In this document: one piece after another, positions 292 to 34,372 of the stretch
Layout of the letters: each line of letters begins with the position of its first letter
How positions within the stretch are numbered: position 1 is the first letter of the stretch
NCBI RefSeq assembly: GCF_003544935.1
Contig: NZ_CP032098.1
Coordinates: forward strand, 744,001-808,000
Length of the DNA stretch: 64,000 bases
Origin: Malaciobacter molluscorum LMG 25693
GTDB lineage: Bacteria; Campylobacterota; Campylobacteria; Campylobacterales; Arcobacteraceae
Reading direction: 5' to 3'
Notes under the pieces: generated by a model
Database searches by the model: none
What the model was told of the DNA's origin: nothing
The model's input: only the letters and a program-made list of their open reading frames with translations
Translations under genes and position numbers: made by a program

Positions 292-306
292 AAAGGATAC
301 AAGATA
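292..306 (+). promoter_or_regulatory. Ribosome binding site pointing to an AUA start
   Basis: AAAGGA (292-297) is followed by a six-base spacer and AUA at 304-306, in frame with the membrane protein. The same site and the same six-base spacing precede the pdxJ GTG and the cvpA-like TTG starts in this window. The frame has no ATG, GTG or TTG between the upstream stop (280-282) and 427. Confidence 0.5.
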
Positions 307-8630: not shown

Positions 8631-9086
8631 ATGCCTAACAATCATGTAAAAGCTTATGGAATAGCTTTATATAAGTTAGAGAATAATAATAGTATCAAGC
8701 TTTTATTATGTAAATCATCAAAAAGTGAAAATAGATGGGGATTTTTAAAAGGTATGCAACAAAAGGCTGAGAGTGCAAAAGAGTGTGCTAAAAGAGAGTT
8801 TTTGGAAGAGTCCGGAATAAAAGTTGATATTGATTTTTTTGAAGAATATTTTGAACAAATAAATAAAGAGAAAGATATTGGTATTTGGCTTGTAAATGCA
8901 AAAAATATAAAAGATTTAGATATTTACTTTAATGATGAAGGTAAAATTTTTGATAAATTTATTTCTCCTGAAAATAGTAAAGTGAAATATTTTGATTTAA
9001 ATAAATTACCTCAATTTAAAAAGAAACAAAAAAACTTGATTGTAAAGATTAAGGGTTTTTTAGAAAATAAGAATCAACACCATTAG
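8631..9086 (+). CDS. Nudix hydrolase
   Basis: About 151 residues. The full Nudix box GMQQKAESAKECAKREFLEESGI (about 41-63) fits G-x5-E-x7-REUxEExGU, including all metal-binding glutamates. The family hydrolyses nucleoside diphosphates linked to another moiety; here the substrate is unknown. A TTG at 8625 lies only three bases after AAAGGA, while the ATG at 8631 has nine, so 8631 is chosen. Its last 38 bases overlap the tail of the convergent amidase gene. Confidence 0.85.
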   Translation: MPNNHVKAYGIALYKLENNNSIKLLLCKSSKSENRWGFLKGMQQKAESAKECAKREFLEESGIKVDIDFFEEYFEQINKEKDIGIWLVNAKNIKDLDIYFNDEGKIFDKFISPENSKVKYFDLNKLPQFKKKQKNLIVKIKGFLENKNQHH

Positions 9087-10425
9087 CAATCCCTTCTGCT
9101 AATATTTTCTGGTATCTTTTATTATATAATCTTCTACTTTCCATAGGATGTGAAATATATCCTACTTCAATTAAAATAGAAGGCATTTGTGCACCTACTA
9201 ATACCCAAAATGGACCTTCCCTTACTCCACCATCTTCTATCGATCTATAATGTTTTTTTAGTTGATAAAGCATATTTTGTTGTACATCAATTGCTAATTT
9301 ATTTGATGCAGTAATTTTACTTTGATTTAACACTGTAAGAAAAGATTTTTTTGTTGCAAGACTCATTGATCTAATATCACTACTATTTTCTTTTGCAGCA
9401 ACTCTTTTTGCTCTTGCACTTCTTGCAGGACTTAAGAAAAATGTTTCAACACCTTTTATTTTATTTGCTTTACTTTTTGCAATAGAGTTAGCGTGAATTG
9501 ATATAAATATATCAGCGTTTAATTTATTTGCAAGAACAGTTCTATTTCTTACTTTTATAAATTTATCTGTCTTTCTCGTAATATAAGCTTTGTAACCTCT
9601 ATTTTTTAGATGATGATAAAGGTATTTTGCAATTGCTAATACAACATGCTTTTCATATCTTTTATGTGGACCTACTGCACCTGCATCCTTGCCTCCATGT
9701 CCTGCATCTATTACAACTATTTTTCTTTTATAATCTTCTTGGATTATTTTTGTAGCTATTTGTTTTTGTTCTTTTTTATCTGATATTTTTATATTTAAAA
9801 ATTTAATTATTATTCTTTTATTATTTATTATATAAATAGGTTTTAGTCTGTTTTTATCTCTAACTTTTATGTGTAATGTTTTTTTATCTTTTTGTATAAT
9901 GAATATTTTATCTATACCTAAAATAGATAGTTTAGTTGGTCCTGCATCTTTAAAAAAACCATTAATATCAAAAAGATATAAATTAAAATATTTTGTTTTA
10001 TCAATATTATAATCTATATCTTTTTTAGTAATATGTTTATTAAAATCAATAATAATCATATTTTTTTGTGTATAAACTTTTTGAATAGAATTTTTTAAAT
10101 CAATTTTTTGGGAAATTGAGTCTTTTTTTGCATACTCTTTTTCAAGTTTGTCTTTTTGAATTGATTGTTTTTTTATTTTGTTAAATTTTTCTTTATTTTT
10201 TAAAGATAATTTTTTTAATTCATTTTTATATTTAGTAGTGTTATATCCAAGTTTTTCACCATAAGATATAATATTTTCTAGGTGTTTCTTTTCTAAAGCA
10301 GTATTATTATCTAATACTGCTCTTAGATAGCTCATTCTTTCTGCATTGTATTTGTCAGATACAGATGATGCTAATAGATTAAGATTAAATATTATTAAAA
10401 AAGATAAAAATATTTTTTTTAAAAT
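9049..10425 (-). CDS. amiA: N-acetylmuramoyl-L-alanine amidase (AmiA/AmiC type), apparent AUU start
   Basis: Zinc amidase that cuts the peptide from glycan in peptidoglycan. Amidase_3 motifs are complete: VVIDAGHGGKDAGAVG (first zinc His), YEKHVVL (zinc Glu), FISIHANS (second zinc His) and the catalytic Glu in PSILIEVGYISHP. A lysine-rich linker fills the N-terminal half. The first usual start is the ATG at 10335, but the frame runs on upstream and encodes a clear signal peptide (LKKIFLSFLIIFNLNLLASS). The best initiation site is AUU at 10425-10423, seven bases after AAGGGAG, which lies in the last codons of the upstream gene. No ATG, GTG or TTG exists in that stretch. The start is inferred; the enzyme identity is firm. 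Confidence 0.85.
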   Translation of the reverse strand: MLKKIFLSFLIIFNLNLLASSVSDKYNAERMSYLRAVLDNNTALEKKHLENIISYGEKLGYNTTKYKNELKKLSLKNKEKFNKIKKQSIQKDKLEKEYAKKDSISQKIDLKNSIQKVYTQKNMIIIDFNKHITKKDIDYNIDKTKYFNLYLFDINGFFKDAGPTKLSILGIDKIFIIQKDKKTLHIKVRDKNRLKPIYIINNKRIIIKFLNIKISDKKEQKQIATKIIQEDYKRKIVVIDAGHGGKDAGAVGPHKRYEKHVVLAIAKYLYHHLKNRGYKAYITRKTDKFIKVRNRTVLANKLNADIFISIHANSIAKSKANKIKGVETFFLSPARSARAKRVAAKENSSDIRSMSLATKKSFLTVLNQSKITASNKLAIDVQQNMLYQLKKHYRSIEDGGVREGPFWVLVGAQMPSILIEVGYISHPMESRRLYNKRYQKILAEGIANGVDSYFLKNP

Positions 10426-10439
10426 AACTATTCTCCCTT
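10423..10439 (-). promoter_or_regulatory. Ribosome binding site and AUU start of the amidase
   Basis: On the minus strand AAGGGAG (10439-10433) overlaps the final codons of the nitronate monooxygenase gene. A seven-base spacer containing that gene's TAG leads to AUU at 10425-10423. This arrangement suggests re-initiation by ribosomes finishing the upstream gene. Confidence 0.5.
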
Positions 10440-11501
10440 AGTAAGTTTTTCTATTAATTCATGAACAGAAATCAATTTATCAAGTTTATATCCATTCGAA
10501 CCAGTAAAAAATAGCCCTGTATCCATATCCCCTTGATATGCTGCACCTAATCTATCTGCAATACAGTAACCTACAATTTTTGCTTCTTTCCCTCTATTAC
10601 AAGGTGCAACACAATTTGAGATACAAGCAACTTTTGGTGCAGTTTTCTCTTCCATTGATTTTTGAAGATTTGTCATTACTGCACGTGCAGGTAACCCAAC
10701 AGGAGATTTCATAAGTTTAATATCTTCTTCTTTTGCATCAATTAAAATTTTTTTCATATTTATATCTACATCACACTCATAAGTACCAATAAATCTTGTG
10801 GCCATTTGAACACCATCACATCCAAGTGCTAAAAATTTATCAATATCATTTTTATCCCAAATACCACCTGCAGCTATAATTGGAATATCTCCCCATTTTT
10901 TAGATTCTTCAATTACAGGTCCTACTATATTTTCTAGTTGATACTCTTCTTGAAAACATTGTTCATAAGTAAAACCTTGATGTCCTCCAGATTTTGGTCC
11001 TTCTACTATAATAGCATCAGGAATTTTATTAAATCTTTTCCATTTTTTACAAATAAGTTTTAATGCTCTTGCACTAGAAACAATTGGTACTAATGCAACA
11101 TCTGGAAAATCTTTTGTAAATTCAGGCATATTTGTTGGTAATCCAGCACCTGTAATAATAATATTAATTCCAGCTTCACATGCATCTTTTACAACTCTAC
11201 CATAATCATTAATAGCATGTAAAATGTTACAAGCTAAAGGTGCATCTCCACAAATTTTTCTTGCATTTTTTATTATAGTATTTAACGCTTCTTTTGAATA
11301 AAAATTTATAACATCAACTGGTTTATTCTTTTTTGTTTTAATTGAGAACTCATCACTTTTATAATAGCCAGTCCCAACTGCTGAAATAACACCTAAAGCC
11401 CCTTCTTTACTTACTGTTCCTGCTAGTTTATCCCAACTAATACCTACACCCATTCCACCCTGGATTATTGGATGTTTTATATCATACTTTCCTATTCTCA
11501 A
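10428..11501 (-). CDS. Nitronate monooxygenase / 2-nitropropane dioxygenase family FMN enzyme
   Basis: 357 residues. A TIM-barrel flavoprotein with the N-terminal PIIQGGMGVGIS, the GPKSGGHQG glycine loop that binds FMN, IIAAGGIWDKND and LGCDGVQMATRF phosphate-binding strands. The C-terminus contains several cysteines (CISNCVAPCNRG). The family includes nitronate monooxygenases and FabK-type enoyl-ACP reductases. The order tyrS - this gene - amidase matches Campylobacter and Helicobacter, where the physiological role is also unclear. It follows tyrS by 14 bases. Confidence 0.85.
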   Translation of the reverse strand: MRIGKYDIKHPIIQGGMGVGISWDKLAGTVSKEGALGVISAVGTGYYKSDEFSIKTKKNKPVDVINFYSKEALNTIIKNARKICGDAPLACNILHAINDYGRVVKDACEAGINIIITGAGLPTNMPEFTKDFPDVALVPIVSSARALKLICKKWKRFNKIPDAIIVEGPKSGGHQGFTYEQCFQEEYQLENIVGPVIEESKKWGDIPIIAAGGIWDKNDIDKFLALGCDGVQMATRFIGTYECDVDINMKKILIDAKEEDIKLMKSPVGLPARAVMTNLQKSMEEKTAPKVACISNCVAPCNRGKEAKIVGYCIADRLGAAYQGDMDTGLFFTGSNGYKLDKLISVHELIEKLTKGE

Positions 11502-33479: not shown

Positions 33480-34285
33480 TTACTCTTCTTTTCTTACTCT
33501 CATAAATGAAGCAAATTTTGGTTTTTTATTTTTTGTAAATCCATAATACTTAAAAGTTACAGTAGCTCCAATTTTAGGTGGATTATATCTTTGTTTATTT
33601 GTAAATCCTCCTCCTAAATTAAATATTACACCATTTTCTAGTTTTATTTGAAGACTTTTCATTCTTTTTGTATTGTTTTTATTATAATTAATACCTATAA
33701 CTTTGCCTTCTTTATCAAAAAATTTTTTTACTTTTAAAATATTGTTATTTCTTCCTTTAAAGTAATTTAGTTTCCCATTTTTTATAATTACTCCTTCTGC
33801 TTTTTTTGATACTAATTTATTTAAATACTTATCTAAATCTTTTTTACTATTACATTTTATTTGAGGTATAAATTTTATGAATTTATTTGGATGTTTTTCA
33901 AACCATATTTTGCTTTTGAAAGTCTTTTTAGAAAATCGCCTTTTGCATTTGGAACTTCAAAAATATTATAAGTAATTTGATTCCATTTATTTGTTGGTAT
34001 TTTATCAAGTACGATACTTTGAATATTTTCAAAATCATCCCTTTTCGTCCATAACTCTCCATCTAGTTCAAATTTAGGAAAGTTTTTTGTAAACTTTTTT
34101 GGTGCATAGATTTTATTTCCATTTTTTGTTAGAAGATTTTTTCCATCCCAATATGCTCTAATTCCATCAAGTTTTTCACTCATGTACCAACCTTTTATAT
34201 TTTGGTCTTTATATATTTTTGGTTTTTGTAATTCAAAAGAAAATAAACTATTTATAAATAAAATAATTAAAAATATTAATTTCAT
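33480..34285 (-). pseudogene. ligE: Periplasmic ATP-dependent DNA ligase (LigE type), frameshifted
   Basis: The gene is split by one frameshift. The first part (34285 to about 33908) starts with a signal peptide (MKLIFLIILFINSLFS) and has the adenylation motif SEKLDGIRAYWDG and FELDGELW. The frame then runs out at 33875. In another frame it resumes at once with WFEKHPNKFIKFIPQIKC, EGVIIKNGKLNYFKGRNN, ILKVKKF and an OB-fold end (GGGFTNKQRYNPPKIG) to 33480. Adding one A to the run of four on the minus strand (33908-33911) restores a continuous protein of about 268 residues. LigE enzymes act on DNA in the periplasm. The shift may be real decay or a homopolymer sequencing error. Confidence 0.75.
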
Positions 34286-34372
34286 ATTAAGCCTTTTAAT
34301 AATTTTTTTAATTATATTTTAATAAAAACTATTAAATAAAGCCCTTAAAAGCTAATTTAATTGATTTTTAGA

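Follow-up and report, generated by a model that had tools for sequence, protein, structure and literature searches.

Which codon starts the wall amidase gene of Malaciobacter molluscorum, if no canonical start codon (ATG, GTG, or TTG) lies ahead of its signal-peptide-like segment? Natural starts at AUU, AUA, and AUC (collectively AUH) are considered rare and exceptional, and several are linked to IF3. The window, the whole stretch of 64,000 nucleotides analyzed here, belongs to a genome of 2.80 Mb in a single contig (G000). Its amidase gene follows a nitronate monooxygenase-like (NMO) gene (Table 1). The amidase matched the Pfam Amidase_3 profile with an E value of 3.1e-48 and 164.6 bits against a cutoff of 27. 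Profile positions 1–173 of 174 were covered, which is the whole domain.

The amidase frame opens past the TAA at 10440–10438 with GGG AGA ATA GTT ATT TTA AAA AAA ATA TTT. No ATG, GTG, or TTG occurs in this frame between that TAA and the ATG at 10335–10333. A sequence-only reading of this DNA had taken the AUU behind AAGGGAG as the only initiation site, and our analysis likewise leaves this codon as the only plausible start, with 7 bases between GGGAG and ATT. The one other in-frame near-start, an ATA at 10431–10429, comes straight after the Shine-Dalgarno (SD) sequence, and some relatives have GTA at this codon. From the ATT onward the frame translates to I-LKKIFLSFLIIFNLNLLA-SS. The stretch between the AUU and ATG 10335 is ILKKIFLSFLIIFNLNLLASS, which we judged by eye to be a Sec-type signal peptide, as the sequence-only reading had also done. 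The charged start and hydrophobic core of this N-terminus recur among relatives, again by eye. The NMO gene ends with TAG at 10430–10428, and 2 bases separate this stop from the amidase AUU. RNA structure around the start showed nothing special (z –0.22).

Table 1. Positions of the features discussed (window coordinates, except for uvrB)
Feature	Position	Strand	Remarks
Amidase_3 N-acetylmuramoyl-L-alanine amidase gene	9049..10425	–	458 codons counted from AUU; Pfam PF01520
AUU start codon of the amidase (putative)	10423..10425	–	Sole SD-spaced candidate ahead of ATG 10335
Shine-Dalgarno AAGGGAG	10433..10439	–	From sequence; overlaps the 3' end of the upstream NMO gene
Signal-peptide-like coding region (ILKKIFLSFLIIFNLNLLA)	10369..10425	–	From translation; judged by eye
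Internal ATG, the first canonical codon but probably not the start site	10333..10335	–	Downstream of the signal-like stretch
Upstream nitronate monooxygenase-like (NMO) gene	10428..11501	–	Pfam PF03060
AUA start codon (putative)	304..306	+	SD AAAGGA at 292–297; the 41 codons after it include no canonical start
Small gene with hydrophobic N-terminal part	304–948 (frame 283–948)	+	AUA start
uvrB	L251:14646-16616 (G000:738646-740616)		Putative AUC start

Amidase homologues were found in 101 of 104 Arcobacteraceae genomes, with no match in G023, G047, and G071, and the start region was compared in all 101. The AUU-type layout was present in 77 of them, from 14 genera. Another 23 genomes, belonging to five genera, carry ATG, TTG, or GTG at or near the place equivalent to the AUU; the sequence of G075 is masked at this place. 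In outgroup loci (Sulfurimonas and kin by name), ATG is the usual codon at the equivalent place, as judged by eye and uncounted. Within the 77 genomes, the start column reads ATT in 69, ATA in 4 (G007, G011, G019, and G030), ATC in 3 (G015, G028, and G029), and GGT in 1, so that 76 of the 77 have an AUH codon. In the GGT genome (G018, locus L043), the AUU has been lost and a TTG follows. In G008 (L033), the ATT is kept and followed by TTG, which may be the start there. In both genomes, the start has perhaps shifted back from AUU to a TTG at the next codon. In nearly all of the 77 genomes, an SD sequence ends up no more than 18 bases ahead of the start column (AAGGAG or AAGGGAG in 67, GGAG in 5, AGGGG in 4, none of these in 1). 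The comparison among related genomes that the sequence-only reading called for thus returned the same aligned codon in most of the genomes sharing the layout, and the AUU start of the amidase is very likely real and common to the 14 genera. On an amidase-domain tree, the AUH label needs 2 changes against a shuffled mean of 17.9. Long branches meet in this tree and the outgroup is placed among AUH rows, which leaves a single origin of the AUU unsettled.

The third base of the start codon changed little. On a gene tree of 43 full-length amidase genes, parsimony required 1 third-base step at the start column; G030 (ATA) and G034 (ATT) are gapped at this column in the alignment, and the full count is about 2. 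The 15 other amidase columns with at least 80% isoleucine required 5–18 third-base steps in the 43 genes, and their isoleucine codons were ATT (290), ATA (217), and ATC (48). The start column therefore has far fewer third-base changes than other isoleucine columns, which points to extra constraint on its third base, although 7 of 103 conserved amidase columns have equally few. We also considered the missing ATG as proof of selection against ATG and rejected this as weak, since G is rare at third positions: it makes up 4.7% at four-fold sites, and 10 of 34 such columns have no G at all.

The amidase AUU had been described as the second unusual start in the window, possibly reflecting an initiation habit. 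The other one is probably the AUA of the small gene near the window's left end (Table 1). This gene has no Pfam family. It matched 3 other family genomes of the 61 searched, and the AUA is kept in both of its close homologues, G004 and G005. To extend the sample, 400 kb around the window were taken from G000 (464 kb in all), together with 400 kb from G002, a genome of the same genus. Among 277 orthologue pairs between the two, several conserved frames begin well ahead of their first canonical start. In the 464 kb, genes with an AUH codon behind an SD sequence included uvrB (AUC), pnuC (AUA), a dbpA-like helicase gene, an ABC permease gene (ATA in G000, ATC in G002), and the gene at 304 (AUA). 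Pfam assigned UvrB, NMN_transporter, and BPD_transp_1 to genes with such extended frames. This supports the idea of an initiation habit: in G000, and among the family orthologues, several genes besides the amidase carry AUH at the start position behind SD.

A strict mechanical test required an SD sequence 4–10 bases before AUH and a run of at least 20 codons free of canonical starts. In G000, 10 of 434 ORFs passed. Two were dropped by inspection, the hit at 777480 as a piece of a split gene and the hit at 922790 for a canonical start further on; of the 8 kept, 6 had homologue support. G002 gave 6 of 370 ORFs, unpruned. Two control genomes of another family (f10, GC 29–30%) gave 3 of 371 (G235, unpruned) and 0 of 370 (G275). 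G074, from another AUH genus, gave 1 of 369, the amidase alone. In a second count, we took the codon 5–7 bases behind SD in ORFs with such a run of at least 20 codons. AUH made up 8 of 12 such codons in G000 (p 2.0e-4, binomial) and 5 of 7 in G002 (p 2.9e-4), against 1 of 7 in the controls (1 of 4 in G235 and 0 of 3 in G275, p 0.55) and 1 of 4 in G074. A scan for SD sequences followed by AUH had been suggested as a measure of how common such starts are; on these samples, it showed enrichment in the two Malaciobacter genomes and none in G074 or the two controls. These counts replaced an earlier homology-extension control with G235 and G275 (362 pairs), whose close similarity to each other made it uninformative. 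As a separate observation, the control genome G235 has a possible AUA start of its own at 828368-831238 on the minus strand, where AAAGGATATATT-ATA-AAA-AAG stands ahead of a hydrophobic N-terminus. Within the window, overlapping minus-strand frames at 33480–33956 and 33875–34318 match one intact G002 ORF, and this gene looks frameshift-split.

Three of these genes were then read across the family, in each case in the best 30 hits of the search, where close relatives weigh most, and with a looser SD list than in the strict test. The uvrB start region reads AAAAAGGATAAAA-ATC-GCA-AAA-TTT, with the first canonical codon 47 codons on. In all 30 loci, the best of a search of 104 genomes, the codon 13 before GDQP could be read: ATC in 18, ATA in 2, ATG in 7, and TTG in 3. 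No canonical codon was found upstream of GDQP in the 20 loci with AUH. AUH and canonical codons sharing one position in uvrB is the clearest evidence, at the level of sequence, that AUH acts as a start. An annotation of uvrB restricted to ATG, GTG, and TTG would drop 47 residues, including the GVTGSGKT motif.

The PnuC-type transporter gene, matched in 44 of 104 genomes, has the start region AAAAAGGATAAATT-ATA-GAA. Twenty-seven of the 29 loci read among the best 30 have AUH behind SD (ATA 17, ATC 8, ATT 2). G001, taken to be M. halophilus, has ATG at the AUH codon, and L372 has TTG one codon on from the AUH position. Against this, the AUH loci have ATGs between that codon and the anchor, and a TTG stands right after the AUH in L371 and two codons before it in L375. 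Given the ATGs further inside the gene, the pnuC case depends on the aligned N-terminus. For the dbpA-like gene, 14 of the 28 loci read among the best 30 have AUH behind SD with no canonical start before the Q motif. Of the others, 4 have both SD with AUH and a canonical codon, 9 have a canonical codon only, and 1 has neither. A canonical codon thus stands upstream of the Q motif in 13 of the 28, which weighs on the other side. The third base varies (AUU, AUC, or AUA), with ATG, TTG, or GTG in other species, which fits a set of usable start codons that includes AUH.

The initiation machinery looked ordinary. G000 has two copies of initiator tRNA, both with a CAU anticodon and the GGG/CCC stem of three G-C pairs, as found by a pattern search that allowed 3 mismatches and that a more divergent tRNA would escape. 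The same features were present in seven genomes (four of AUH genera, two with canonical starts, and one outgroup, G219), and the initiator tRNA of G235 gave no match to the pattern at 3 mismatches. For IF3, we compared residues with chain 8jsg_A, which we take to be E. coli IF3, assuming also the numbering of R99 and R131 and their link to fidelity mutants. The aligned residues in Malaciobacter IF3 are Ser and Lys. Across the 6 infC loci read of 10, the R99-aligned residue is Ser in 5 and Thr in 1 (G148), and the R131-aligned residue is Lys in 3 and Arg in 3. As these residues do not separate the AUH genera in the 6 loci, we rejected them as the cause of AUH use. In infC, TTG is the first canonical codon in all 30 family loci read (L091–L120); among the 6 loci of the residue comparison, it is TTG in 5 and ATG in 1 (G148, of another family). 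By codon position, the family loci gave no sign of an AUH start of infC itself, that is, of an AUU loop of the E. coli type.

Several other accounts of the amidase start have to be weighed against initiation at AUU. ATT differs from ATG by a single base, and the sequence-only reading had allowed for base-call errors; a base-call or assembly error hiding ATG or TTG has next to no chance of being right. The same ATT recurs in the 69 separately assembled genomes, which excludes such an error, and the records with ATT include named species and strains such as M. halophilus, A. vitoriensis, A. cryaerophilus, and A. vandammei. Translation could instead begin inside the frame, at ATG 10335 or a different canonical codon, leaving the hydrophobic stretch untranslated. 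This ATG is the first canonical start, and its Met is nearly invariant in 13 aligned sequences. Yet a protein begun there would lack the signal-like N-terminus, many genus-g2 relatives have Ile instead of this Met, and the roughly 90 codons read in each of G010, G011, and G036 include no canonical codon. The canonical starts that 23 family genomes have at or near the AUU position also speak against an internal start, to which we give a slim chance. The closeness of the NMO and amidase genes, 0–2 bases apart in the 77 genomes, would suit a fusion of the two proteins by stop readthrough or frameshifting. The distance from the NMO stop to the start column is 2 bases in 53 genomes, 1 in 22, and 0 in 2, with the AUH directly after the stop in G086 and G087. 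All three frames of the amidase relative to the NMO stop therefore occur, a single recoding event would not serve them, and fusion by readthrough or frameshifting is excluded as a shared mechanism; the AUH is the first codon common to the lineages. A fusion would also make the signal peptide internal, and the SD is kept at start spacing. Its probability is very slim.

The same short distance gives more weight to strict coupling, in which the AUU is used solely through reinitiation after NMO and new initiation is negligible. The stop-to-AUU gap of 0–2 bases (77 of 77) compares with 1–13 bases in canonical-start relatives, measured in the 19 with a located NMO stop; in the other four (G043, G045, G053, and G103), the start was taken from the start-region comparison. 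If anything, the AUU layout is tighter than the canonical one. AUH starts need not depend on coupling, however, as uvrB, pnuC, and dbpA have no demonstrated tight upstream gene, and we consider the strict form rather unlikely. Were there an additional initiator tRNA carrying an Ile-type anticodon, it would account for AUU, AUA, and AUC alike. This idea runs against the CAU anticodon of both G000 copies found by the pattern search, and it has very little chance of being correct.

We are fairly confident that the amidase starts at the AUU, placed there by its SD sequence with a low, IF3-sensitive yield, as one of a set of AUH genes in the family. The strong AAGGGAG would position the 30S ribosome at the AUU, possibly handed over by a ribosome that has just stopped 0–2 bases upstream on NMO. 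The ordinary fMet-tRNA would then pair with the A and U and mismatch at the third base. IF3 would normally disfavor such a mismatch, so the amidase yield should be low and sensitive to IF3. The predicted product is the full amidase preprotein, including the signal peptide. The amidase would belong to a set of genes (uvrB, pnuC, the dbpA-like gene, and others) whose start became and stayed AUU, AUA, or AUC. With an ordinary initiator tRNA and no IF3 residue tied to the AUH genera, the known SD-driven mismatch mechanism is likely. A low ceiling on output would plausibly suit a wall-cutting enzyme.

Similar starts occur elsewhere. Binns and Masters reportedly found in 2002 that an inefficient AUU limits pcnB expression in Escherichia coli. 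That gene, like the amidase, has an AUU start and is unrelated to IF3; the gene and lineage are different, and here AUH is kept across 14 genera. The E. coli infC gene also has a natural AUU start, and replacement with AUG abolishes its translational autocontrol (PMC1780047). It shares the AUU with the amidase, whereas here the gene encodes a wall amidase and infC in the family has TTG as its first canonical codon. In Staphylococcus aureus, one report describes conserved AUU (cvfC1) and AUA (ccpN and infC) starts mapped by Ribo-Ret behind strong SD sequences, with AUU/AUA sites giving about 10% of the AUG reporter yield in poor medium (PMC13009471). The arrangement is alike in conservation and strong SD. 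That text names four sites, citZ included, against at least six homologue-supported candidates in 464 kb here, which are sequence-based. The Streptomyces sigR gene has a GTC start that is conserved in its lineage and repressed by IF3, and canonical replacements overproduce the protein (PMC5472188). Both cases show a noncanonical start conserved within a lineage, GTC there and AUH here, and the function of the sigR start was tested experimentally in that account.

Searches of open-license literature, including start codons combined with Arcobacter or amidase, gave no paper whose title concerns AUH use in Arcobacteraceae. The amidase would join the natural AUU-started genes, and the gene-by-gene retention of AUH in Arcobacteraceae is the new and more interesting finding. 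Several genes tend to retain a third base of their own, with AUU for the amidase, AUC for uvrB, and, in Malaciobacter and genus g2, AUA for pnuC. We tentatively propose, leaning slightly against it ourselves, that AUU, AUA, and AUC may be regular starts in much of Arcobacteraceae, used by about 2% of Malaciobacter genes as a low-output set co-tuned by initiation fidelity with an ordinary tRNA. The 2% estimate comes from 8 of 434 ORFs sampled and would mean some tens of genes per Malaciobacter genome. If the proposal is true, initiation fidelity as a shared dial on gene output becomes testable. Gene callers limited to ATG, GTG, and TTG would trim N-termini here, including signal peptides and the N-terminus of UvrB.

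Three loci assigned to Campylobacterales or Campylobacterota also drew our attention. Near position 1500, the amidase start looks like ATT in L172 and ATA in L195 and L200, and L200 has an additional in-frame ATG further upstream of the ATA. These are possibly independent cases of AUH.
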